64,000 bases of DNA from Neoroseomonas alkaliterrae (GTDB taxonomy: Bacteria > Pseudomonadota > Alphaproteobacteria > Acetobacterales > Acetobacteraceae): positions 496,001 through 560,000 of the forward strand of contig NZ_JACIJE010000001.1 in the NCBI RefSeq assembly GCF_014199195.1. The letters run 5' to 3'. Below, piece after piece: positions 3,664-14,878 of this stretch. The translations under genes were made by a program, and so were the position numbers. The notes under the pieces are model-generated. The model was not told where the DNA came from. It did not search any database and saw only the letters and a program-made list of their open reading frames with translations. The stretch's first letter is position 1, and each line of letters starts with the position of its first letter.

Positions 3664-5004
3664 CTATCGCACCAGCCTCTTAACGATCCTTTCCGCCATT
3701 CCGCTCCGGGGCGGATCAAACATTCGCGCGAGGGCGAAGCGCCCGTGCCGGACCCGCGCGCGCAGGTTGGAGAAGGAGCGAAAGCCTTCCTCCCCATGCA
3801 TGCGCCCATGGCCCGAGCCGCCGACCCCGCCGAAGGCCAGCGCGGAGAAGCCGACATGCTCCACGCAGCGGCCGGAAACCAGCGCGCCGGAGCGGGTTCC
3901 GGCGGCGATCTGCGCCTCCTCCGCCGGGCTCGCGCCAAAGATGTAGATGGCCAGCGGCGCCGGCCGCGCGGCGACCCAGGCGATGGCGGCGGCGAGGTCG
4001 GGCCGCTCCAGCACCGGCAGGATGGGCCCGAACACTTCCTCGTGAAGCAGCGGGTGGTCCTCCGGCGCCTCGGCCAGCGCGAGGGCGCGGCGGCGGCCCG
4101 GCCCATCCGGCCCGAGCGGCGTCAGCCGCGCCCCGGCGGCCAGCCGGTCGAGCCGCGCGGCGGCGGCCTCGTCCACCAGCGCGGTCTCGGGCGCGGGGAT
4201 GCCGGCGGCGCGGCAGGCGGCCTCGAAGGCGGCGCGGCCATGGCCGACCAGCAGCACCGTGTCGGGCGCGACGCAGGTCTGGCCGGCATTGAGCGCCTTG
4301 CCGACCAGGATGGCGCGCGCCGCCGCCCCAAGTTCCGCGCCCGGCAGGATGATCGCGGGGCATTTGCCGCCCAGTTCCAGCGTCAGCGGCACCAGGTTCG
4401 GCGCCGCCGCGGCGGCCACCTTCCGGCCGGTCGCGGTGCCGCCGGTGAAGGCGAGGTGGTCCCAGGGCTGGGCCGCGAAATCCGCCGCGACGGCGGCATC
4501 GCCGGTCACGCAGCGCGCGATGCGCGGGCCGAGCGCGGCCTCCAGCACCTCGCCCACCAGCGCCGCGCAGCGCGGCGTGCGCTCCGAGGGCTTCACGGCG
4601 ATGCGGTTGCCCGCCGCGATGGCGTCCACCGCCGGGGCGAGGGCGAGCTGGAACGGGTAGTTCCACGGCGCGAGGATGCCGACGATGCCCTTGGGCACCG
4701 GTTCGAGCCGCGCCCGCGCCGGCCAGAACGGGTAGGGCACGCCGACGCGCCGCGGGCGCGCCCAGCGGCGCAGGTGGCGGCGGGCATGCAGCGCGAAATC
4801 GGCCACCAGCAGCGCATCGGCGAGCAGCGTCTCGATGCGCGAGCGGGCGCCGAAATCGGCGGCGGCGGCGGCGGCGATGTCCTCGGCGCGGCGCTTGGTC
4901 TCGGCGGCGAGGCGGGCGAGCAGCTCGCGCCGCGCCGCGAGGTCCGGCGCGCCGTCCGTCGCCTCGGCGGCGCGCAGGGCGGCCAGGGCCTCGGCGGGGC
5001 TCAT
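3664..5004 (-). CDS. Aldehyde dehydrogenase (coniferyl-aldehyde/class-3-like), probable apocarotenal oxidase
   Basis: A 446-residue NAD(P)-dependent aldehyde dehydrogenase. Catalytic residues are visible: Asn115 in APWNYPF, Glu210 in LELGGK and the nucleophile Cys244 in NAGQTCVAP. The short length and the missing N-terminal extension match the membrane-associated coniferyl/fatty aldehyde dehydrogenase group. It lies 61 bases downstream of hpnE at the distal end of a C30 carotenoid-type cluster. In staphyloxanthin synthesis AldH oxidises diaponeurosporenal to the acid, and methanotroph C30 pathways use a similar enzyme. I infer the same role here, oxidising a terminal carotenoid aldehyde; the sequence does not exclude a general aldehyde scavenger. 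Confidence 0.82.
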   Translation of the reverse strand: MSPAEALAALRAAEATDGAPDLAARRELLARLAAETKRRAEDIAAAAAADFGARSRIETLLADALLVADFALHARRHLRRWARPRRVGVPYPFWPARARLEPVPKGIVGILAPWNYPFQLALAPAVDAIAAGNRIAVKPSERTPRCAALVGEVLEAALGPRIARCVTGDAAVAADFAAQPWDHLAFTGGTATGRKVAAAAAPNLVPLTLELGGKCPAIILPGAELGAAARAILVGKALNAGQTCVAPDTVLLVGHGRAAFEAACRAAGIPAPETALVDEAAAARLDRLAAGARLTPLGPDGPGRRRALALAEAPEDHPLLHEEVFGPILPVLERPDLAAAIAWVAARPAPLAIYIFGASPAEEAQIAAGTRSGALVSGRCVEHVGFSALAFGGVGGSGHGRMHGEEGFRSFSNLRARVRHGRFALARMFDPPRSGMAERIVKRLVR

Positions 5005-5065
5005 GCGGCGCGCACCGGGGTTGCGCCGCCTCCGCCATGCGTCCGCTGCGGGTGTTCGCGCGGCG

Positions 5066-6352
5066 TCACGCGGCCTCCCGGCGCGGCAGGCGGGGCAGCA
5101 GGGCCCTGGCCGCGGCCTCGCCCGAGCGGGCGGCGGCCTCGATGGTCGCGGGCAGGCCGGGCCAGGTCCAGTCCCCGGCCAAGGCGAGGTTGTGCATGGG
5201 CCGCCGCGGCGCGTGCGGGGCGATGCCGACGCCATGGCGCGGCGTGGCGCGGCGCTCCTTCACCGCGCGGCAGGGGGGCGGCGCCTCCGGCCAGTCGCCG
5301 GGCAGGGCGAAGGCCTGCGCGGCGCGGCGGATCTCGGCCCAGGCGCGCGGGGCGAGGCTCGCGGCCGCCTCCTCGGTTTCCGCATCGGCCGCGCTGACCG
5401 TCACGCTGATCCCGGCGGGCCGCAGCAGGATCCATTGGGTCAGCCCGCCCAGGATGCCGATGAAGCGCACCGGCCCCGGCGTGGATTGCGCGAAATGGAG
5501 GTTGAGGATGGGCGCATGGCGCTCGGGCACCTTCAGCCCGGGGATCAGCCGCGCCGTCTCCCAGGGCGGCAGGGCCAGGATCACGGCGTCGCGCTCGCCG
5601 AGCGGCAGGCTCTCCTCGCCGAGATGGAGCGCGGTGACGCGGCCATCGGCCTGGGTCATGGCGCGCAGCCGGCTGCCGAGGCGCAGCGTGGCGCCGGCGG
5701 CCTCCAGCGCGGCGAGGGCGGGCGCGACGAGATCGGGCCCCAGCCCCTCGCGCGCCACCAGCAGCCGCGCCGCCCCGGCGCTGCCGAGCCGCCGCAGCAC
5801 CTGCCCGAGCCGCGCGGAGGAGGCCTCCTGCACCGGGGTGTTCAGCGCGGCGACGGTCAGTGGCTCCACGAAGCCGCGCAGCAGGGCGGGGTGCCGCGCC
5901 AGCGCCTCGGCCACCGGACGGTCGGTGAGCGGCAGCGCCATGCCGAGCAGGGCCAGCAGGCCCCCGGCGCTCAGCCCCGGCGGCCGCCGGGCCGGATCCC
6001 GCCAGGCGAGCGGCGCGGCGGCGATGCGGCGCGCGCTGCCATCGGCGAGGTCGAGCAGCGGCAGCCCCTCGGGTTCCGGCTCGATCCAGCGCTCGCGGGC
6101 GCTGATCGCCTCGAGGAAGCGCAGCGCGGCATGGTTCGCCCCCATCAGCGCGTGGGTGCCGTTGTCGGTGCCGTCGGGCAGCGCGCGGCAGCGCCCGCCG
6201 GCGAGCATCGTCGCCTCATGCAGCGTCACGGCATGGCCGGCGCGGGCGAGGACGAGCGCGGCGACCATCCCGGCCATGCCGGCGCCGACGACATGCACGC
6301 GCGCCGCGCCCTGCGGGCCGAAGGGGCAGGGGCCGGGAGCGGCGATCCTCAT
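5066..6352 (-). CDS. hpnE: HpnE-type FAD-dependent squalene-forming oxidoreductase
   Basis: A 428-residue flavoprotein of the amine oxidase/phytoene desaturase superfamily. The dinucleotide fold is at residues 18-50 (HVVGAGMAGMVAAL, then LHEATMLAGGRCR), followed by DNGTHALMGANHAALRFLEAI, characteristic of HpnE. HpnE reduces hydroxysqualene to squalene as the third step of the HpnCDE route from farnesyl diphosphate. Its ATG overlaps the stop of the HpnC-HpnD fusion by four bases (ATGA), so the two are translationally coupled. No squalene-hopene cyclase or other hpn gene is present here, so the squalene probably feeds the neighbouring desaturases. Confidence 0.88.
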   Translation of the reverse strand: MRIAAPGPCPFGPQGAARVHVVGAGMAGMVAALVLARAGHAVTLHEATMLAGGRCRALPDGTDNGTHALMGANHAALRFLEAISARERWIEPEPEGLPLLDLADGSARRIAAAPLAWRDPARRPPGLSAGGLLALLGMALPLTDRPVAEALARHPALLRGFVEPLTVAALNTPVQEASSARLGQVLRRLGSAGAARLLVAREGLGPDLVAPALAALEAAGATLRLGSRLRAMTQADGRVTALHLGEESLPLGERDAVILALPPWETARLIPGLKVPERHAPILNLHFAQSTPGPVRFIGILGGLTQWILLRPAGISVTVSAADAETEEAAASLAPRAWAEIRRAAQAFALPGDWPEAPPPCRAVKERRATPRHGVGIAPHAPRRPMHNLALAGDWTWPGLPATIEAAARSGEAAARALLPRLPRREAA

Positions 6353-7986
6353 CGCGCGGCGACGGGGGCGAGGCGCAGCGCGAAGGCGGCCATGCGCGCC
6401 TTCTCACCCGCCGTCAGGCGCGGGCGCGCGCGCGGCGCGCCGAAGCCGCGGGCGAGCAGGCGGTCGAACAGGCGCCGGTAGCCCCACATCATGATGCGCG
6501 CGGGCAGCAGGGCGCGGGTGTCGAGGTGCCGCAGCTCGGCCTCGGCGCGGGCGAAGCCGGCTTCGGCCTCGGCGGCGAGCGCGCGGGCGGCGGCGGCGAT
6601 GCCGGGCGCGGCGATGATGCGCGCCGCCGGCCCCTCTGGCACGCCATGCGCGGCGAGCAGGTCGGCGGGCAGATAGACGCGATCGCGCGCCGCGTCCTCG
6701 TCCATGTCGCGCAGGATGTTGACGAGCTGCAGCGTGCGCCCGAGCGCGAGGCCGAACGGCGCCGCCTCGGGCGCGCCGAAGATGCGCACCGCCATCGCGC
6801 CGACGCTGCCCGCGACACGGCGGCAATAGAGGTCGAGCGCGGCGGCGTCGGGGATCCGCACCGCGGGCGCGGCGTCGGTCTCCATGCCCGCGATCATCGC
6901 CTCGCATTCCGCAATGGGCAGGCCGTAGCGCTCGCGCGCGCGGGCGAGCTCGCGCGAGAGGGCGCAGTCGGGCCGCGCCAGCTTCGCCCGCCAGTCGTCG
7001 AGGAAGCGGCGCTTCTCGGTCTCGGGCATGGCGCCGTCGGCGATGTCGTCCACCGCGCGGCAGAAGGCATAGACGGCCCAGAGGGCGCGGCGGCGATCCC
7101 CGCGCAGCGCCGCCATGCCGCGCGCGAAGGAGGAGCCCGCGCGCGCGACGCGGGCGCGCACCAGCGCGGCGTCCGAGGGCCCTCCGAAGGGCGCGGCGAG
7201 GAAGGCGCGGGCGAAATCCGCCCTGCCCAGCGCGACGCGCTGGCGGACCGGGTCCTCCGCGCGCAGCCGCGCGAGCAGGCGCCGCGCGAGCGCGAGCGTC
7301 ACGGCGGCTTCCATCGCGAGGCGCCGCGCGCCGATCAGGCGCGGCAGGCAAGCCGCGGCGTCGAGGCGTTCCTCCACCCGGTCCAGCGCGGCGTCGAGCA
7401 CGGCGCGGCGGCGCTCCGCGTTCTCCGGGGCGAAGAAGGCCTCCTCCCCCCCGGCCAGCGCCATCCAGGGCCCGGGCAGGTAGATGCGGTCGAGCGCCTC
7501 GCGGTCCCTGGCGAGGTCCTGGATGTGGTTGAGCACCTGCAGCGCGGTGCAGAGGGCATCGGCGGCGGCCTCGGCCCCGGGTGCGGCTGCGCCGTGCAGG
7601 CGCAGCAGCATCCGCCCCACGGGATTGGCCGAGGCGGCGCAATAGGCCTCGAGCCCCGCCCAGTCCGCGTAGCGGCCCTGCGTCGCGTCCTGGCGGAAGG
7701 CGGCGAGCATGGCGCGCGCCTCCGCCGTGCCGCAGCCGCTGTCATGGAGCGGCCGCGCGGCGGGCTCGGCGGTGGCGGGGTCGTCCAGCGCGCGTTCCAG
7801 CGCGTCGAGCCGCGCGAGCTTCTCGGCCGCCGGCAGGTCCGGGCTGTCGGCGATGTCGTCCGCCGTGCGCACGAAGCGGTAGAAGCCGAGCACCTTCGGG
7901 CGCACCGCGCGCGCGAGCAGCGCCGAGGCGACCGGGAAGTTCTCGGCATCATGGGTGCGGCTGGGCGGTCCGGCGGCGACGGTCAT
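6349..7986 (-). CDS. hpnCD: Fused HpnC-HpnD squalene synthase (presqualene diphosphate synthase + hydroxysqualene synthase)
   Basis: One uninterrupted 545-residue frame holds two complete trans-isoprenyl-diphosphate synthase domains. Residues 1 to about 270 are HpnC-like (ENFPVAS, FYRFVRTADDIAD at 35-47, second acidic motif NHIQDLARD at 153-161). Residues from about 276 to 545 are HpnD-like (GSSFARGMAAL, AFCRAVDDIAD ending at 317, NILRDMDEDAARDRVYLP at 423-440). HpnD condenses two farnesyl diphosphates to presqualene diphosphate; HpnC converts that to hydroxysqualene. They are normally separate adjacent genes. There is almost no linker. An in-frame GTG at codon 276 could start a free HpnD, but no well-placed Shine-Dalgarno precedes it. 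The start at 7986 (MTVAAGPP) was chosen over 7995 by family N-termini. Confidence 0.88.
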   Translation of the reverse strand: MTVAAGPPSRTHDAENFPVASALLARAVRPKVLGFYRFVRTADDIADSPDLPAAEKLARLDALERALDDPATAEPAARPLHDSGCGTAEARAMLAAFRQDATQGRYADWAGLEAYCAASANPVGRMLLRLHGAAAPGAEAAADALCTALQVLNHIQDLARDREALDRIYLPGPWMALAGGEEAFFAPENAERRRAVLDAALDRVEERLDAAACLPRLIGARRLAMEAAVTLALARRLLARLRAEDPVRQRVALGRADFARAFLAAPFGGPSDAALVRARVARAGSSFARGMAALRGDRRRALWAVYAFCRAVDDIADGAMPETEKRRFLDDWRAKLARPDCALSRELARARERYGLPIAECEAMIAGMETDAAPAVRIPDAAALDLYCRRVAGSVGAMAVRIFGAPEAAPFGLALGRTLQLVNILRDMDEDAARDRVYLPADLLAAHGVPEGPAARIIAAPGIAAAARALAAEAEAGFARAEAELRHLDTRALLPARIMMWGYRRLFDRLLARGFGAPRARPRLTAGEKARMAAFALRLAPVAAR

Positions 7987-8110
7987 CGGCCGCATGGTGG
8001 CACGGGAGCGCCCGCCTTGTCCGCGCCGTGGCCCGCGGTGCGCCGTGCGGCGGGGGCGCGCGTGCCGCCCGTCTCCGGCGCGGGGCGATGCGCCGGCGCC
8101 GGCCTGCCGC

Positions 8111-9214
8111 TCACGGCGCCTCGGGCGCGGCGTAGTCGCGCCCCTTCCAGCCCTCCTTGCGGCCGAGCAGGGCGCGGGCGAGCGCCGTCCACTGGATCGC
8201 GAGCGCCACCACCACGGCGAGGGGATGCAGCGCGACGGTCCAGTAGGGCTCACCCACGCGCCGCGTGACCGCCGCGCGCAGGGCGAAGACGAGGGCGAGC
8301 GCGAGCCACGCCTGGAAGGCCGGCAGCAGGAAGAAGGGCCAGAGATGCGCGCCCGCGAGCACCACCGTCCAGACCGGCAGGCCGAGCGGCGTCGCCATGC
8401 CTTCCCGCGCGTTCTTGAGGAAGCCGCGCCACGCCTCGCCGAAGCCGCGATACATGCGGCAGGTGGCCAGCCGCGCGCCCTCCACGATCTCGGTGCGATG
8501 GCCGGCGGCGCGCATCAGGCGGGGGAAGTTCAGCCCGTCATGCAGCGTGGCGCGCAGCGCGCCATGGCCGCCGACGGCCTCGTAGGCGCGGCGCTCGAAC
8601 AGCATCATCTGGCCGCAGCCCGCCGCGAAGCCCGGCAGGCGCGTGAAGGCGCGGCCGCCGCCCGGCAGGTAGCCGGTCAGCAGCAGGTTGATCATCGGCA
8701 CGGTCAGCCCCTCGCCGATGGTCTCGATGCGCTGGCGCGGCACGCCGCTGACCAGCGCGATGCCGTGCCGCGCGGCATGGGCGGCGAGCCCCGCGGCGGC
8801 ACCGGGGGCGAGGCGCACATCGGCATCGAGGAACAGCAGATGGGTGCCGCGCGCCGCCTCGGACAGCCGCGCGCAGGCATGCATCTTGCCCGACCAGCCG
8901 GGCGGCAGGGCGGGGGCGGAGACGAGCCTCAGCCGCGCGTCGCGCGCGGCCAGGGCGCGGACGATGTCGGGCGTGCCGTCGGTCGAGCCGTCATCCATCA
9001 CCACCACCTCGATCGCCACGCCCTGCTGCGCCAGCGCGGCCTCGATGCAGGGGCCGATATTCGCCGCCTCGTCGCGCGCGGGGATGAGGATGGAGACGAG
9101 CGTGCCCTCCGGCGGCCGGCCCTCCGGCGCGCGCAGGAGGAACAGGTTGACGAGGCCGGTCGCGGCGGGAAACACCGCGAGCACCAGCGCGATCCAGGCG
9201 GGGTCGAAGGTCAT
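8111..9214 (-). CDS. Family 2 glycosyltransferase, CrtQ/CruC-like (probable carotenoid glycosyltransferase)
   Basis: A 367-residue membrane-associated GT-A glycosyltransferase. It has an N-terminal membrane helix, the nucleotide-sugar motif VVMDDGSTDGTPD (DD at 74-75), a DAD metal motif at 130-132, the acceptor-side GCGQMMLFERRAYEAVGG and about three C-terminal hydrophobic segments. Length and layout match CrtQ (glucosyl esterification of diaponeurosporenoate) and CruC (hydroxychlorobactene glucosylation). Its start overlaps the acyltransferase stop by four bases, mirroring the paired GT and acyltransferase of those pathways. A 124-base gap separates it from hpnCD. The acceptor is inferred from context. 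Confidence 0.85.
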   Translation of the reverse strand: MTFDPAWIALVLAVFPAATGLVNLFLLRAPEGRPPEGTLVSILIPARDEAANIGPCIEAALAQQGVAIEVVVMDDGSTDGTPDIVRALAARDARLRLVSAPALPPGWSGKMHACARLSEAARGTHLLFLDADVRLAPGAAAGLAAHAARHGIALVSGVPRQRIETIGEGLTVPMINLLLTGYLPGGGRAFTRLPGFAAGCGQMMLFERRAYEAVGGHGALRATLHDGLNFPRLMRAAGHRTEIVEGARLATCRMYRGFGEAWRGFLKNAREGMATPLGLPVWTVVLAGAHLWPFFLLPAFQAWLALALVFALRAAVTRRVGEPYWTVALHPLAVVVALAIQWTALARALLGRKEGWKGRDYAAPEAP

Positions 9215-10026
9215 GGCGCGCGCTCCGGCCTGGTGTCGTGGCGCGGGTCGAATCGCTGCCCGCGCAGCAGCGCGCCGAGCCGGCGCCAGGTCTGATAGAC
9301 GCCGCCCATGCCTTCGCGGCCATGCACCAGCGTCTCGAACCGATCGGGGTCGCGGCTGATCGCGTCCTCGGTGAGCCGGTCGGCGGTGGCGGCGAGCGCG
9401 GCGGCGAGATGCGGCGCGCGCGCCTCGCGCTCCATCGCGAGCAGCGTGGCGGCGGGGATGGGCGGGCCGAAGGCGGCGAGCATCTCCGCCTTGCGTTCCC
9501 CCCAGAACGGGTAGTCGAGCGCGAGCGGGATGAACTGCGCCTCCGGCGCCATCTCGGGCAGGCGGATCATGCCCGGCGCGATCGGGATCGGCCTCTCGCG
9601 CGGGTCGGCGAAGCGGCCGGGCGCGTTGATCCAGAGCATGTGGGCGGGATCGCGCAGCACATGCTGGGCGGTGCGCAGGAAGGCGACCGATCCGCGCGCC
9701 GTGCCGGTCTCGATCCCGAACACGCCGAGGCGCCGCATGAAGGCGTATTTGTCGAGCGCCCAGGAGGCCATGGGCGTGAAGAGCGGCCGGTCGCGCAGCA
9801 GCGTGCGGTTGAGCAGCATGAAGGCGACGCCGTCCCACCACGAGGGGTGGTTGGCGAAGACCACCGCCGGCACGCCGGGCGCGGCCTGCGGCCGGCCCCA
9901 GCGCGCGAGGCGCAGAGCGCGCATGTGCTTGCCGAAGAACCGGGTGAAGGCGAACTCGAAGAAGGCGAGGTGGCGCTCGGAGCGCAGCGCCACCGGGTCG
10001 GGGGCCTGCACGGCCGCCCCGCTCAT
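9211..10026 (-). CDS. PlsC-like acyltransferase, CruD/CrtO-like role
   Basis: A 271-residue 1-acyl-glycerol-phosphate acyltransferase-fold protein. The catalytic HX4D is NHPSWWDG (His60, Asp65), and a GR-containing substrate motif follows in NAPGRFADPRERP. No signal peptide or strong membrane helix is seen. It sits between a carotene desaturase-like gene and a glycosyltransferase, overlapping each by four bases, so all are made together. In staphyloxanthin and chlorobactene-ester pathways an acyltransferase attaches a fatty acid to the sugar of a glycosylated carotenoid, and I infer that role here. A phospholipid acyltransferase role cannot be excluded from motifs alone. Confidence 0.85.
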   Translation of the reverse strand: MSGAAVQAPDPVALRSERHLAFFEFAFTRFFGKHMRALRLARWGRPQAAPGVPAVVFANHPSWWDGVAFMLLNRTLLRDRPLFTPMASWALDKYAFMRRLGVFGIETGTARGSVAFLRTAQHVLRDPAHMLWINAPGRFADPRERPIPIAPGMIRLPEMAPEAQFIPLALDYPFWGERKAEMLAAFGPPIPAATLLAMEREARAPHLAAALAATADRLTEDAISRDPDRFETLVHGREGMGGVYQTWRRLGALLRGQRFDPRHDTRPERAP

Positions 10027-11603
10027 TCGGCCGCGAGCAGCGCGTCCCTCAGGCCGGCGCGTTCGGCCTCGGGGGACATGCCGCGTCCGCCCTGGTCGCG
10101 ATCCATCGCATCCGCCGCGATCCAGCCCGACATCATCACCATCGGCATGCCCGGGCCAGGATGCGCCGCGCCGCCGCAGAGGTAGAGGCCGCGGATCGCC
10201 TTGGGCCGGTTGGACGGCTTGAAGGCCCCGAAATAGGCGCCGTGCGAGGCAAGGCCGTAGATCGCCCCGTCCAGCACCTTGTAGCGCTCGTGGATATCCT
10301 GCGGCGTCAGCGCGCGCTCGACGACGATGCGGCTCTCGATATCCTCCATCCCCGCGGTGCGCTTGAGCTTGTCGAGGATGCGCTGGCGGTAGGGCGCGAA
10401 CATCTTCGACCAGTCGTGTCCCGGTCGCAGGTGCGGGGTGTGCACGAGGACGTAGAGCGCCTCCCCGCCCGCGGGCGCGACCGTGTCGTCGCTCATCGAG
10501 GGGGCGCAGAGATAGGCCGTCGGGTCGGGCGCGGGCTCGCCCTTGACGTAGATGCTCTCGAACTCCTCCTCGGCGTCGCGCGAGAACACGAAGCAGTGGT
10601 GCGCGAGGTGGTCGTAGCGCTTGCGCAGGCCGAGATAGAGCACCACGCCCGAGCAGGCCGGCTGGTAGCCCTTGCGCTCGATGCGCCGCGCCTGCCCGCC
10701 GCCCACGAGCTCGGTGTAGGTGCGCACCGCATCCATGTTGGAGATCACCGCGTCGCAGGCGATACGATCGCCGTTCGCCGTCACGCTGCGGACGGCGCCG
10801 CGCTCGATCTCGATCTCCGTGACCTCGGCATCGGTGCGCAGATCGGCGCCGAGCTCGCGCGCGAGCTTCGCGAGGCCTTCGGCGACCGCGCGCGTGCCGC
10901 CGACCGGATACCAGACGCCCTCATTGGCCTGCATGTCGCCGATGCCGCAGAGCACGGCCGGCGCCATGTAGGGGTTGGAGCCGACATACTGGGTGAAGTG
11001 GTCGAGCATCTGCGCGAGGCGCTCGTCCGGCACATGGCCGCGGATGACCTTGGCGACGGTCTGGCCCATGCGCAGCGCCATGATGTCGCGCAGCACCTCG
11101 GGCTTGAAGTTGTCTGTGAAGGAGAGCGTGTCGCCGATGCCCTCGACCGGCTTCCAGAAGAAGAACTTCTCGCTGACCTCGTGCAGGTGCCGCGAGACCT
11201 CCTGGAACTTCCGGTAGCCCGCGCCCATGCCCTTGCCAGGGACGAAGGCGTCCATGGCCTGCGCCATGGCGCCGACATCCTCCACCAAGTCGATGCGCGT
11301 GTTGTCGTCGAAGAAGCAGCGCCATTGCGGGTCGAGGCGGATCAGCGGCAGCTCGTCGGCCTGGTTGCGCTTCGCCTCGGCGTAGATCCGGCGCAGCACG
11401 CGCGGCACGGTCAGGATGGTCGGGCCCATGTCGAAGCGGAAGCGGCCCTCGCCCTCCGGGTTGTCGAGGTGCAGCACCGCGGCCTTGCCGCCGAGCCAGG
11501 GATTGCGCTCGAGCAGCGTGACGCGGTGCCCGCGCGCCTGCGCGACGACCGCCGCGGCGAGCCCGCCGAGACCGCTGCCGATGATGACCACCTTCGCGCC
11601 CAT
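10023..11603 (-). CDS. CrtI/CrtN/CrtP-family carotenoid desaturase or oxidase (paralogue 1)
   Basis: A 526-residue FAD-dependent phytoene-desaturase-family protein. The Rossmann motif IIGSGLGGLAAAV is at residues 7-19, the second FAD strand is LLERNPWLGGKA, and the diagnostic C-terminus is GLYLCGGAAHPGPGMP. The start at 11603 is fixed by a GGAGG about eight bases upstream; the longer frame has none. It lies 19 bases after the second paralogue, and its stop overlaps the acyltransferase start. With squalene as precursor, one of the two paralogues should be the CrtN-like desaturase making a C30 polyene and the other a CrtP-like terminal oxidase. Which is which cannot be decided by eye. Confidence 0.86.
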   Translation of the reverse strand: MGAKVVIIGSGLGGLAAAVVAQARGHRVTLLERNPWLGGKAAVLHLDNPEGEGRFRFDMGPTILTVPRVLRRIYAEAKRNQADELPLIRLDPQWRCFFDDNTRIDLVEDVGAMAQAMDAFVPGKGMGAGYRKFQEVSRHLHEVSEKFFFWKPVEGIGDTLSFTDNFKPEVLRDIMALRMGQTVAKVIRGHVPDERLAQMLDHFTQYVGSNPYMAPAVLCGIGDMQANEGVWYPVGGTRAVAEGLAKLARELGADLRTDAEVTEIEIERGAVRSVTANGDRIACDAVISNMDAVRTYTELVGGGQARRIERKGYQPACSGVVLYLGLRKRYDHLAHHCFVFSRDAEEEFESIYVKGEPAPDPTAYLCAPSMSDDTVAPAGGEALYVLVHTPHLRPGHDWSKMFAPYRQRILDKLKRTAGMEDIESRIVVERALTPQDIHERYKVLDGAIYGLASHGAYFGAFKPSNRPKAIRGLYLCGGAAHPGPGMPMVMMSGWIAADAMDRDQGGRGMSPEAERAGLRDALLAAE

Positions 11604-11622
11604 GCGCCTGCCCTCCCGTCGC

Positions 11623-13197
11623 TCAGTCGCCCATCGCGGGCTGGGCGATGCCGATGCGCGCACCCCGGTCGGCCTGCGGCCGCATGCCGAGATCCTGCAT
11701 CAGCAGTTTCGCGCTGATCCGCGCGCCCTCGTAGATCACCGGCAGGCCGCTGCCCGGATGCGTCCCGCCGCCCACGAGATACACGCCCTCCGCCTTGCCG
11801 AAGCGGTTCTGCGGGCGGAAATGCATCATCTGGCGGACATTGTGCGCCAGGTTGAAGGTCGCGCCGTAGCCCACCGCGTATTCGTCGCGCCAGTCCTGCG
11901 GCGTGACGATGCGCTCGTAGCGGATGCGCGATTCGAGGTCGTGCAGGCCAAGGGCCTTGAGCCTCTCGATGGCGAGGCGGCGATAGCGCGGCGCCTCCGC
12001 CGCCCAGTCCTGCCCGCCGCGCAGGTTTGGCACCGGCACCAGCACATAGAGCGTGGAATGGCCCGCCGGCGCGAGCGAGGGGTCGGTGCCCGCCGCCGCC
12101 TGCACGTAGAGGGATGGGTTGTCCGGGATCACGCCGGACTCGATCTGGTTCAGGTTGCGCTCGTAGTCCTCGGCGAGCAGCACGCTGTGGTGCGCCATCT
12201 GCGGCAGCGTGCCCTCGATGCCGAGGTAGAGCATGAAGGTCGAGCAGGAATAGCGCGCCTGGGCGATCTTCGCGTCCGGCCATTGCGGGCGCAGCGCCTC
12301 GGGCATCAGCGTGGGGATGGCGTGGGCGAAATCCGCGTTCACCACCACCGCATCGGCGGCATGGCGCACGCCGCGCACCTCCACGCCCGCGGCGCGGCGC
12401 CCCTCGAAGGCGATGCGCTCCACCGGCTCGTTCAGGCGGATCTCGACGCCGAGGCGCTCCGCCACGCGCGCCATCGCCTCGCTCACCGCGCCGCAGCCGC
12501 CGACCGGGTGGAAGATGCCGTGCTCGTATTCCAGGAAGGAGAGGATCGAGAACATGCTCGGGCAGCGGAAGGGGCTCATCCCGAGGTATTTCGACTGGAA
12601 GGTGAAGGCGAGCCGCGTGCGCGGGTCGCTGAAGTGGCGCTTGAGGTCCTGGTCGAGCGAGGCCCAGGGGCGCAGGTAGCGCAGGCCCTTCATCACCTCG
12701 GGCGCGAGGTAGGTCATCAGCCCGTGGAAGGGGCGCTCGAGAACGGGCCGGAAGGCCTCGAGCTTCACGCGGTTGTCCGCCAGGAAGGAGCGCAGGCCCT
12801 TGGCATCGGCCGGGTTCAGCTTGGCGATCTCGGCCTCCATCCGCGCGATGTCGGGGGAGGCGTCGATCGTGACCGGGCGCGCGCCCTCGAACACCAGGCG
12901 GTATTGCGGGTCGAGGCGGATGAGCTCGACCTCGCGCTCGAGGTCGGCGCCGCAACTGGCGAAGATCTCGCGCAGGATGCGCGGATAGAGGAAGAAGGTC
13001 GGCCCGATGTCGAAGCGGTAGCCGCCCGGCGCCGTCACCGTGCGGGTGCGGCCGCCGACGACGCTGTCACGCTCGAAGACGGTGACGCGCGCGCCGCTCG
13101 CCGCGAGCAGCAGCGCGGCGGCGAGGCCGCCGGGGCCTGCGCCCACGATGGCGACGCGCGGACGGGTTCGGGCAAGGGCTGGCAGGGACGCGTTCAT
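11623..13197 (-). CDS. CrtI/CrtN/CrtP-family carotenoid desaturase or oxidase (paralogue 2)
   Basis: A 524-residue flavoprotein with the N-terminal FAD fold IVGAGPGGLAAALLL / FERDSVVGGRTRT, DIGPTFFLYPRILREIF, and the family C-terminus GVYLVGGGTHPGSGLP. It is clearly diverged from paralogue 1, so this is an old duplication or independent recruitment. It is the first gene of the run on the minus strand, 70 bases after an acyl-CoA dehydrogenase stop. That gap shows no convincing promoter, so read-through from upstream is possible. The start (MNASLPALART) has only a weak Shine-Dalgarno. Expected substrates are squalene or its dehydrogenated C30 products. Confidence 0.86.
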   Translation of the reverse strand: MNASLPALARTRPRVAIVGAGPGGLAAALLLAASGARVTVFERDSVVGGRTRTVTAPGGYRFDIGPTFFLYPRILREIFASCGADLEREVELIRLDPQYRLVFEGARPVTIDASPDIARMEAEIAKLNPADAKGLRSFLADNRVKLEAFRPVLERPFHGLMTYLAPEVMKGLRYLRPWASLDQDLKRHFSDPRTRLAFTFQSKYLGMSPFRCPSMFSILSFLEYEHGIFHPVGGCGAVSEAMARVAERLGVEIRLNEPVERIAFEGRRAAGVEVRGVRHAADAVVVNADFAHAIPTLMPEALRPQWPDAKIAQARYSCSTFMLYLGIEGTLPQMAHHSVLLAEDYERNLNQIESGVIPDNPSLYVQAAAGTDPSLAPAGHSTLYVLVPVPNLRGGQDWAAEAPRYRRLAIERLKALGLHDLESRIRYERIVTPQDWRDEYAVGYGATFNLAHNVRQMMHFRPQNRFGKAEGVYLVGGGTHPGSGLPVIYEGARISAKLLMQDLGMRPQADRGARIGIAQPAMGD

Positions 13198-13267: not shown

Positions 13268-14878
13268 TCATGCCGCGAGAGCGCCCTCGATCTCGGCCGC
13301 GCGGGCGGCGGCGCGCGGCAGCAGCCGGCGCAGGTAGAACTCCGCCGTCGCGCCATGGGCCGACGGATCCTCGGCGGCGGCGCGCGCCAGCATCCAGCCG
13401 CCGAGCAGCCATCCCGCCGCGTCGAGATAGGCCACCGCGACCGACTGCGCGGCTTCCGCGTCGCGCCCCTGCACCTCGAGCATGCGCCCGGTGACCGCGC
13501 CGAAGGCCTCCGCGGCGGCGCGCAGCCGCGCATCGGGCGAGCGGCCGACCTCGGCGAGCAGCGCGCGCATCTCCGCCCCGCCGTCCTTCGCGACCTTGCG
13601 CACCAGCAGGTCGATCGCCTGGATGCCGTTGGTGCCTTCGTAGATCGGGGCGATGCGCGCATCGCGCAGCACCTGCGCCGCGCCCGCATCCTCGACGAAG
13701 CCCATGCCGCCATGCACCTGGATGCCGGTGGAGGCGGTCTCGACCCCGCGGTCGGTGCACCAGGCCTTGAGGATGGGCGTGAGCAGCGCGAGCCGGTTCT
13801 GCGCCGCCGCGTCGCCGAGCAGCGCGTGGCGGTCCACGCAGAGCGCCGTCTCGAGCGCGAGCAGCCGCGCCGCGAGGGTGATGCTGCGCATCTCCATCAG
13901 CATGCGCGCGACATCGGGGTGCTCCGCGATGGGCCGGCCGCCCTGGATGCGCTGCGCGGCATAGGCCTCGGCGAGCCGCAGCGCGGCCGCGCCATGCGCG
14001 ACACCCTGCGTGCCGACGCCGAGGCGGGCGTTGTTCATCATCGCGAACATCGCCGGCAGGCCGCGATGGGGTTCGCCCACCATCTCGGCCTCCGCGCCCT
14101 CGAACAGCATGATGCAGGTCGGGCTCGCATGGATGCCCATCTTGCGCTCGATGCCGCCGCAGCGGATCGCGTTGCGGCTGCCATCCTCCTTCACCTTGGT
14201 GCAGGCGAAGAGGCTGATGCCCTTCGAGCCCGGCGGCGCATCGGGCAGCCGCGCCAGCACCAGATAGACGATGTTCTCCGTGCAGTCGTGCTCGCCCCAG
14301 GTGATGAAGATCTTCTGCCCGGTGAGCGCATAGCGCCCGTTGCCGAGCGGCTCGGCCCGGGTGCGCAGCACGCCGAGGTCGCTGCCGGCATGGGGTTCGG
14401 TCAGGCACATCGCGCCGGTCCATTCGCCGCTGACCATGCGCGGCAGCCAGCGCGCGGCCTGCTCGGGCGTGGCGTGGTGCGTCAGGCAGTCGATCGCGCC
14501 CGCGGTCAGCAGCGGCCCCAGCATGAAGGAGGTGTCGGCCGCCATGCCGAGCTCGGTCATCGCCGTCCAGAGCGAGGCCGGCAGGCCCTGCCCGCCATGC
14601 TCGGCCGGCGCGGCGAGGGACTGCCAGCCCCCCTCGATCCATTTCGCGTAGGTCTCGCGGTAGGGCGTGGTGACGACGCCATTCGCATAGACGGCGCCGG
14701 CGCGGTCGGCGGCCTGCGCGCCGGGCATCAGCACCTCGGTGCAGAAGCGGTCGGCCTCGGTGACGATCTGGGCGATGTCCTCGGCCGAGAGCGGCGCGCC
14801 GGCGGCCTCGGTCAGCGCGGGCAGGCCGACCACGCGGGTCAGGCCGAAGATCAGGTCGGCGGCGGCGGTGGAGGTCAT
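13268..14878 (-). CDS. Acyl-CoA dehydrogenase, DmdC-like with C-terminal extension
   Basis: A 536-residue acyl-CoA dehydrogenase of the long subfamily that includes 3-methylmercaptopropionyl-CoA dehydrogenase DmdC. Features are AMCLTEPHAGSDLG, IHASPTCIMLFEGAEAE, GGMGFVEDAGAAQVLRDARI and PIYEGTNGIQAIDLLVRK, then the extra helical C-terminal domain of this subfamily. Most relatives are 570-600 residues; this one begins slightly later. The family acts on varied CoA thioesters, and DMSP metabolism should not be assumed. The ATG overlaps the stop of the flavoenzyme upstream by four bases, so the two genes form a coupled pair. Confidence 0.88.
   Translation of the reverse strand: MTSTAAADLIFGLTRVVGLPALTEAAGAPLSAEDIAQIVTEADRFCTEVLMPGAQAADRAGAVYANGVVTTPYRETYAKWIEGGWQSLAAPAEHGGQGLPASLWTAMTELGMAADTSFMLGPLLTAGAIDCLTHHATPEQAARWLPRMVSGEWTGAMCLTEPHAGSDLGVLRTRAEPLGNGRYALTGQKIFITWGEHDCTENIVYLVLARLPDAPPGSKGISLFACTKVKEDGSRNAIRCGGIERKMGIHASPTCIMLFEGAEAEMVGEPHRGLPAMFAMMNNARLGVGTQGVAHGAAALRLAEAYAAQRIQGGRPIAEHPDVARMLMEMRSITLAARLLALETALCVDRHALLGDAAAQNRLALLTPILKAWCTDRGVETASTGIQVHGGMGFVEDAGAAQVLRDARIAPIYEGTNGIQAIDLLVRKVAKDGGAEMRALLAEVGRSPDARLRAAAEAFGAVTGRMLEVQGRDAEAAQSVAVAYLDAAGWLLGGWMLARAAAEDPSAHGATAEFYLRRLLPRAAARAAEIEGALAA

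Follow-up and report, generated by a model that had tools for sequence, protein, structure and literature searches.

Squalene-route C30 carotenoids are established in other bacteria, and the pathway class treated here is already known. In Azospirillum brasilense Sp7 deletion of crtNPOQ abolished the carotenoid and led to the accumulation of squalene, and deletion of hpnCDE abolished the carotenoid with no squalene detected (PMC13274349). The product of Methylobacterium extorquens AM1 is described as an octadecenoyl-glucosyl diapolycopenedioic acid; deletion of the glycosyltransferase gene left the di-acid C30H36O4 and deletion of the acyltransferase gene left its glucoside (PMC10448405). For Roseococcus thiosulfatophilus a review reports a carotenedioate of C30 type together with the corresponding diglucosyl ester (PMC12654162). 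We analyzed a window of 64,000 nucleotides from the genome of Neoroseomonas alkaliterrae (NCBI RefSeq assembly GCF_014199195.1, contig NZ_JACIJE010000001.1, positions 496,001 to 560,000 of the forward strand), in which positions 3664-13197 are filled by seven open reading frames (ORFs), all on the minus strand. In the direction of transcription these encode CrtN, CrtP, a PlsC-like acyltransferase, a GT2 glycosyltransferase, a fused HpnC-HpnD protein (HpnCD), HpnE and an aldehyde dehydrogenase (ALDH). Very likely they form one operon that serves a squalene-route C30 carotenoid pathway, and the pigment itself is very probably a squalene-derived C30 compound.

An earlier note, made from the DNA sequence, had proposed seven co-directional genes at this locus with the same outer limits as found here. 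Its statement that many of them overlap by 4 bp was true in part: ATGA overlaps are present, but only at three of the six junctions (CrtP/acyltransferase, acyltransferase/glycosyltransferase and HpnCD/HpnE). The remaining intergenic gaps measure 19, 115 and 61 bp with the starts used here. As named relatives we used the best 80 of at least 479 relatives found by CrtP alignment, a set which is biased to close kin. The complete set of seven genes was found in the same order and on the same strand, with the ALDH gene as the final gene, in 49 of the 80, and the order CrtN-CrtP-acyltransferase-glycosyltransferase in 76; some of the incomplete loci stop at contig ends. This conserved order disfavours a chance clustering of the genes. 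HpnC and HpnD were both recognised (at least 45% identity) in 65 of the 80; in 63 of these the frame was uninterrupted, and in 2 it contained one stop. Two further samples share organisms with each other and with the 80 relatives. Among 20 loci taken from 31 genomes of the genus with an HpnCD match, 17 contained all seven genes, 18 the first four and 20 the HpnCD fusion. From the family, 25 loci were selected by two features of HpnC, a long frame and a low score; here the set was complete in 14, the first four genes were present in 20 and HpnCD was fused in 25.

Two genomes were exceptional in their arrangement. The C30 genes of Roseomonas sp. HF4 have no adjacent HpnCDE genes; the operon is broken between the glycosyltransferase gene and HpnCD, and the parts lie on separate contigs. 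The eight ORFs downstream of the HF4 C30 genes gave no squalene synthase, and HpnCD-HpnE-ALDH was found on a different contig. One genome of the genus (G156) contained HpnCD and HpnE with no CrtN within the stretch examined.

The CrtN-type C30 desaturase (13197-11623, 524 amino acids (aa)) and the CrtP-type C30 terminal oxidase (11603-10023, 526 aa) scored 523 bits, for an extended version of the ORF, and 387 bits with the model TIGR02734 (crtI_fam, cut-off 238 bits). Their origin was investigated in a maximum-likelihood tree of 31 proteins, including C40 CrtI of this genome, of Pantoea and of Roseobacter as well as CrtN and CrtP of Staphylococcus xylosus. The names of the S. xylosus proteins rest partly on their operon, where a CrtO is annotated and a squalene/phytoene synthase is encoded, and partly on the gene order crtOPQMN, which we assume to apply. 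The CrtP of the window clustered with S. xylosus CrtP with a support of 99/96. The CrtN of the window fell within a clade of 12 proteins (100/100) together with Azospirillum, Microvirga, Gluconobacter, Limimaricola and other CrtN proteins. C40 CrtD stood separate. The genome holds four CrtI-family proteins over the cut-off, namely the operon pair and a CrtI and a CrtD encoded beside PufLM on another contig, and the latter two fell outside the clades of the operon proteins. A C40 origin of both desaturases was rejected on the basis of the tree, firmly for CrtP and moderately for CrtN. In a sample of the ranking for CrtP, the S. xylosus record (E 5e-65) stood above the listed Pantoea records, the best of which reached 1e-46. 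CrtP is 77% identical to its counterpart in R. thiosulfatophilus RB-3 and 62% to that of A. brasilense Sp7; CrtN is 60% identical to A. brasilense Sp7 CrtN. These sequence comparisons make the assignment of CrtP firm; that of CrtN is moderate and relies chiefly on its sharing a clade with the Azospirillum protein and on its constant linkage to CrtP.

The squalene for such a pathway would be supplied by the HpnC-HpnD fusion (7995-6349, 548 aa, with an alternative start at 7986), a presqualene diphosphate synthase joined to a hydroxysqualene synthase, and by the hydroxysqualene dehydroxylase HpnE (6352-5066, 428 aa), which matches nearly the whole model TIGR03467. The whole fused protein scored 336 bits with the HpnC model (cut-off 250.45) and 314 bits with the HpnD model (cut-off 279), values that are above the cut-offs but are sums including both halves. 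Each half retains two Asp-rich motifs. A single-frame HpnCD was matched in 31 of 35 genus genomes, in 30 of them over at least 490 of the 548 residues. Since it also occurs in a plasmid cluster of Microvirga ossetica, the fusion is not confined to the family. HpnD and HpnC catalyse successive steps, and therefore their joining could serve to pass on presqualene diphosphate. No title on an HpnC-HpnD fusion stood among the open-access papers listed.

Four proteins of the genome matched SQS_PSY, namely HpnC, HpnD, a CrtB-like protein of the photosynthesis region, which has CrtB as its best family but stays below that model's cut-off, and a fourth protein that lacks DxxxD motifs. The last one, at contig C5:104082-104804, is judging by its motifs probably not a synthase, and it was rejected as a hidden CrtM. 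With all four otherwise assigned, CrtM was not found among the SQS_PSY matches of the genome. The locus thus combines HpnC, HpnD and HpnE with CrtN- and CrtP-type enzymes, which is the composition of a squalene-route C30 pathway.

Squalene is also the substrate of squalene-hopene cyclase (SHC). This enzyme was found neither in the N. alkaliterrae genome nor in any of the 35 genus genomes, 28 of which are of high quality; the controls of the search gave matches in Bacillus subtilis and Methanosarcina acetivorans. In a family draw of 150 genomes SHC was present in 133. Because the 35 genus genomes yielded no SHC while 31 of them kept HpnCD, squalene is probably made for the pigment in N. alkaliterrae, and its hopanoid use appears to have been lost here. 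A hopanoid role of HpnCDE in this organism was rejected on the same grounds. Among the 26 genomes with fused HpnCD (25 family loci and N. alkaliterrae itself) SHC was present in 20, and fragmentary genomes may conceal more. A CrtN of at least 53% identity was found in 24 of these 26 genomes vs 25 of the 124 others. Across the family, C30 genes occurred in 8 of the 17 genomes with no SHC vs 41 of the 133 with SHC, which is not significant (Fisher p 0.18). Consequently, the HpnCD fusion accompanies the pigment genes, and SHC was lost in an additional step specific to the lineage. Two genomes (G047 and G127) carry fused HpnCD and HpnE with SHC elsewhere in the genome and no CrtN of at least 53% identity; in these the fusion may serve hopanoids, perhaps after loss of the pigment. 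A wider scenario, in which the genus dropped hopanoids and came to use squalene solely as a pigment precursor, HpnC and HpnD became one enzyme that passes on presqualene diphosphate and moved into the pigment operon, and a C30 dioate glucosyl ester assumed membrane-ordering and light-harvesting roles in these phototrophs, is speculative and we consider it rather unlikely.

The tailoring genes suggest a glucosylated and probably acylated acid. The PlsC-like, lysophospholipid-type enzyme (10026-9211, 271 aa), a probable carotenoid-glucoside acyltransferase, keeps the Hx4D motif (HPSWWD) and is 36-47% identical to acyltransferases of CrtN/CrtP clusters in five other genera. The GT2 enzyme (9214-8111, 367 aa, PF00535), a probable carotenoate glucosyltransferase, is 47-55% identical to the glycosyltransferases of five other CrtN/CrtP clusters and only 28-36% to the glycosyltransferase beside HpnC in unfused family loci; an assignment to the hopanoid-locus type was therefore rejected. 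The order CrtP-PlsC-glycosyltransferase in the window is that of the Methylobacterium-type cassette for acyl-glucosyl diapolycopenedioate, with M. extorquens judged by its description and not by sequence. Plasmid 1 of M. bullatum, the single Methylobacterium record compared, gave only two short CrtP matches, and its best ALDHs were 27-34% identical. The ALDH of the window (5004-3664, 446 aa, PF00171 (Aldedh) 200 bits), a probable oxidase of diapolycopene-dial to the dioic acid, carries ELGG and GQTC motifs. Its identity amounts to 49-50% with the ALDHs of the Microvirga and Limimaricola clusters, but to only 34% with that of the Azospirillum cluster and 29% with that of the Gluconobacter cluster; the latter two are 45-47% identical to each other. 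The pairwise identities thus indicate two ALDH lineages adjoining the CrtN/CrtP cassette, which suggests separate recruitment. In Gluconobacter, Azospirillum and Microvirga, genes for DUF2141 proteins were seen beside or near the cassette, and the last gene of the Microvirga cluster is ispH; these are possible accessory genes. The N. alkaliterrae operon is flanked by an acyl-CoA dehydrogenase gene upstream and a GNAT acetyltransferase gene downstream, neither of which looks like a pathway member.

By analogy to the homologues the following route is proposed. The HpnD half would couple two molecules of farnesyl diphosphate to presqualene diphosphate, the HpnC half would convert this to hydroxysqualene, and HpnE would reduce the latter to squalene. 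CrtN is predicted to desaturate squalene toward 4,4'-diapolycopene and CrtP to oxidize the terminal methyl groups to aldehydes, which the ALDH would convert to carboxyl groups. Glucosylation by the GT2 enzyme and subsequent acylation of the glucose by the PlsC-like enzyme would yield the most likely end product, a mono- or diglucosyl ester of 4,4'-diapolycopene-4,4'-dioic acid which is probably fatty-acylated and would act as a polar membrane photoprotectant alongside the C40 pigment of the photosystem. As AM1 and R. thiosulfatophilus make C30 di-acids, a di-acid is likely instead of a mono-acid. An acylated glucosyl ester is the form that we favour, with less assurance. The earlier note had already argued for much of this. 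Its C30 chemistry on squalene is supported by the gene families and the CrtN/CrtP tree, and its replacement of CrtM by HpnCD-HpnE agrees with the failure to find CrtM in the genome. The proposed glucosyl ester tailoring is likewise supported. That no SHC is linked to the locus proved correct, and none was found in the genome as a whole. The phylogenetic check it had named, namely whether the two flavoproteins group with C40 CrtI or CrtD, gave no such grouping, with the firm result for CrtP and the less firm one for CrtN described here.

Several observations weigh against this reading. In the tree S. xylosus CrtN joins the CrtN clade with a moderate support of only 95/73, the C40 CrtI proteins of this genome, Pantoea and Roseobacter form the sister group of that clade, and S. 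xylosus sits on a long branch for both proteins. In similarity alone CrtN shows no preference for Staphylococcus: among plasmid records with a CrtN match, the best 60 of 203 contained many C40 CrtI but none from that genus. Taken by itself, the HpnC half reaches 230.5 bits and stays below the cut-off of 250.45; HpnE, though full length, reaches 254 bits with a cut-off of 283; and the acyltransferase remains just below the PF01553 cut-off with 22 vs 23 bits. Roseomonas mucosa and four other named relatives have CrtN-CrtP-acyltransferase-glycosyltransferase followed by the ALDH gene with no HpnCDE at the locus, and seven further relatives kept HpnCD with no match to HpnE. In four of the 35 genus genomes (G150, G154, G160 and G161) HpnCD gave no match at E 1e-40. 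In AM1, moreover, the product was still formed after two ALDH candidates had been deleted (PMC10448405), so that a gene of the AldH type may be dispensable. The review gives no acyl group for R. thiosulfatophilus (PMC12654162), hence acylation may not be general. Finally, the pathway of N. alkaliterrae is predicted from its genes by analogy to A. brasilense, in which squalene has been shown as the intermediate, and to AM1, in which the C30 product has been shown.

A different function of the pigment has to be considered in view of the phototrophic genes. C30 and C40 pathways coexist in the N. alkaliterrae genome, which was beyond the view of the earlier note. A photosynthesis region on contig C5 (about 25-62 kb) contains PufLM, CrtI and CrtD as well as CrtC-, CrtB- and prenyl-synthase-like genes, the proteins of these last three each being below the model cut-off. 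The operon itself is not of the C40 spirilloxanthin type, as CrtI, CrtD, the CrtB- and CrtC-like proteins and PufLM are encoded on that other contig and the operon genes are distinct from them. The C30 pigment could nevertheless be a working light-harvesting carotenoid of the photosystem and not a free membrane photoprotectant. For R. thiosulfatophilus, whose strain RB-3 carries the same operon, the review assigns a part in light transfer to the C30 dioate and to the diglucosyl ester (PMC12654162), and in the family draw PufLM was present in 27 of 49 C30-type genomes vs 25 of 101 others (Fisher p 0.0004, kinship not removed). However, 22 of the 49 C30-type genomes gave no PufLM match over the cut-off; thus the C30 pigment is not tied to photosynthesis and does not need a photosystem. 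The operon and the photosynthesis genes lie on different contigs, and the title of a primary paper says that most of the polar carotenoid of RB3 is unbound to photosynthetic complexes. In addition, no PpsR-like box was found in the 400 bp upstream of the window operon. The nearest one lies at 14032 within the acyl-CoA dehydrogenase gene, and the photosynthesis region has four, including TGTCAGTCATTCTTGACA and TGTCAATTTACATTGACA. A light-harvesting function is therefore possible but unlikely, and we keep to the membrane photoprotectant.

In relatives, PpsR-like boxes of the pattern TGT-N12-ACA were observed in 15 of 88 distinct regions covering the 250 bp before CrtN, compared with 0.59 on average in dinucleotide shuffles; within the operons 46 of 2621 tiles contained them, and other spacings occurred in at most 2 regions. 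By their letters these boxes derive from about three lineages. This pattern may mean that certain relatives control the C30 operon together with photosynthesis. Among 91 upstream regions, none showed an EcfG-type pattern and 1 showed an ECF-type pattern, which is not above shuffles.

The earlier note had labelled the cluster staphyloxanthin-like. A product of this type would arise by oxidation at one end and would be an acylated glucosyl ester of the mono-acid diaponeurosporenoic acid. The grouping of CrtP with staphylococcal CrtP speaks for it, as does the presence of a single glycosyltransferase and a single acyltransferase, like in staphyloxanthin formation. On the other hand, CrtM was not found, the operon's acyltransferase is PlsC-like with no meaningful match to S. 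xylosus CrtO, and the nearest relatives of known chemistry, AM1 (PMC10448405) and R. thiosulfatophilus (PMC12654162), make di-acids. A mono-acid thus seems improbable, and the label needs to be corrected, the likely product being the di-acid 4,4'-diapolycopene-dioate. A further reading, in which the genes for squalene formation supply hopanoids or free squalene, the desaturases act in C40 pigment formation and the clustering is incidental, is highly improbable: HpnC, HpnD and HpnE do occur together without CrtN/CrtP in many family genomes, the genome has a C40 pathway and the CrtN group is sister to C40 CrtI, but SHC was not found in this genome or the 35 of the genus, a separate CrtI and CrtD are encoded in the C40 region and fall outside the clades of the operon proteins, and the 20 fused-HpnCD genomes with SHC (of 26) carry it on another contig (17) or about 299 kb or more away on the same one (3).

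As far as the open-access literature was checked, three aspects are new: a single seven-gene operon with fused HpnCD across the group labelled Roseomonadaceae, its pairing with no cyclase found in a whole genus sample, and the link of genes to the R. thiosulfatophilus chemotype. We offer this gene set for the C30 carotene-dioates of R. thiosulfatophilus and predict that many Roseomonas-like bacteria make pigments of that class. The ALDH is a candidate enzyme type for the step whose enzyme was not found in AM1 (PMC10448405). Squalene synthase genes are no reliable marker of hopanoids, since none of the 35 genus genomes showed a cyclase, in contrast to a survey which reports hopanoid synthesis genes in all Acetobacteraceae type strains (PMC8776678). 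Such gaps are already in print: a 2025 survey lists 33 GyrB vs 24 Shc sequences for Roseomonas (PMC12583986).

Compared with known systems, the locus shares with the staphyloxanthin genes on the S. xylosus plasmid the CrtN and CrtP homologues, a glycosyltransferase and an acylation step. In place of HpnCD and HpnE that plasmid has one squalene/phytoene synthase, which from its place among the genes we take to be CrtM. Comparison of its short annotated CrtO with the PlsC-like enzyme gave no meaningful match (best E 4.8 over 18 residues), a result limited to the operon's acyltransferase, as no search for CrtO was made in the genome. The plasmid cluster of Microvirga ossetica (NZ_CP016619) contains CrtN, CrtP, acyltransferase, glycosyltransferase, one-frame HpnCD, HpnE and an ALDH of 49-50% identity. 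It differs by a methyltransferase gene between CrtN and CrtP, by ispH after HpnE, by its location on a plasmid and by a divergent ALDH gene on the opposite strand. M. extorquens AM1 likewise uses HpnCDE-derived squalene, CrtN, CrtP, a glycosyltransferase and a lysophospholipid-type acyltransferase, the last two proven by deletion; there, however, the genes are dispersed, with separate hpnC and hpnD beside the cyclase gene and no identified ALDH (PMC10448405). A. brasilense Sp7 has CrtN-CrtP-acyltransferase-glycosyltransferase in the same order with an adjoining ALDH gene, at 51-62% identity for CrtN, CrtP and the glycosyltransferase and 47% for the acyltransferase. It differs in that hpnCDE lie at a separate locus (PMC13274349), HpnC and HpnD were matched as two pieces and the ALDH is of the other lineage (34% to the window ALDH). 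R. thiosulfatophilus RB-3 has the identical seven genes in the identical order, with fused HpnCD and 61-77% identity; its genome retains SHC on another contig. The nearest studied systems are those of A. brasilense and M. extorquens.

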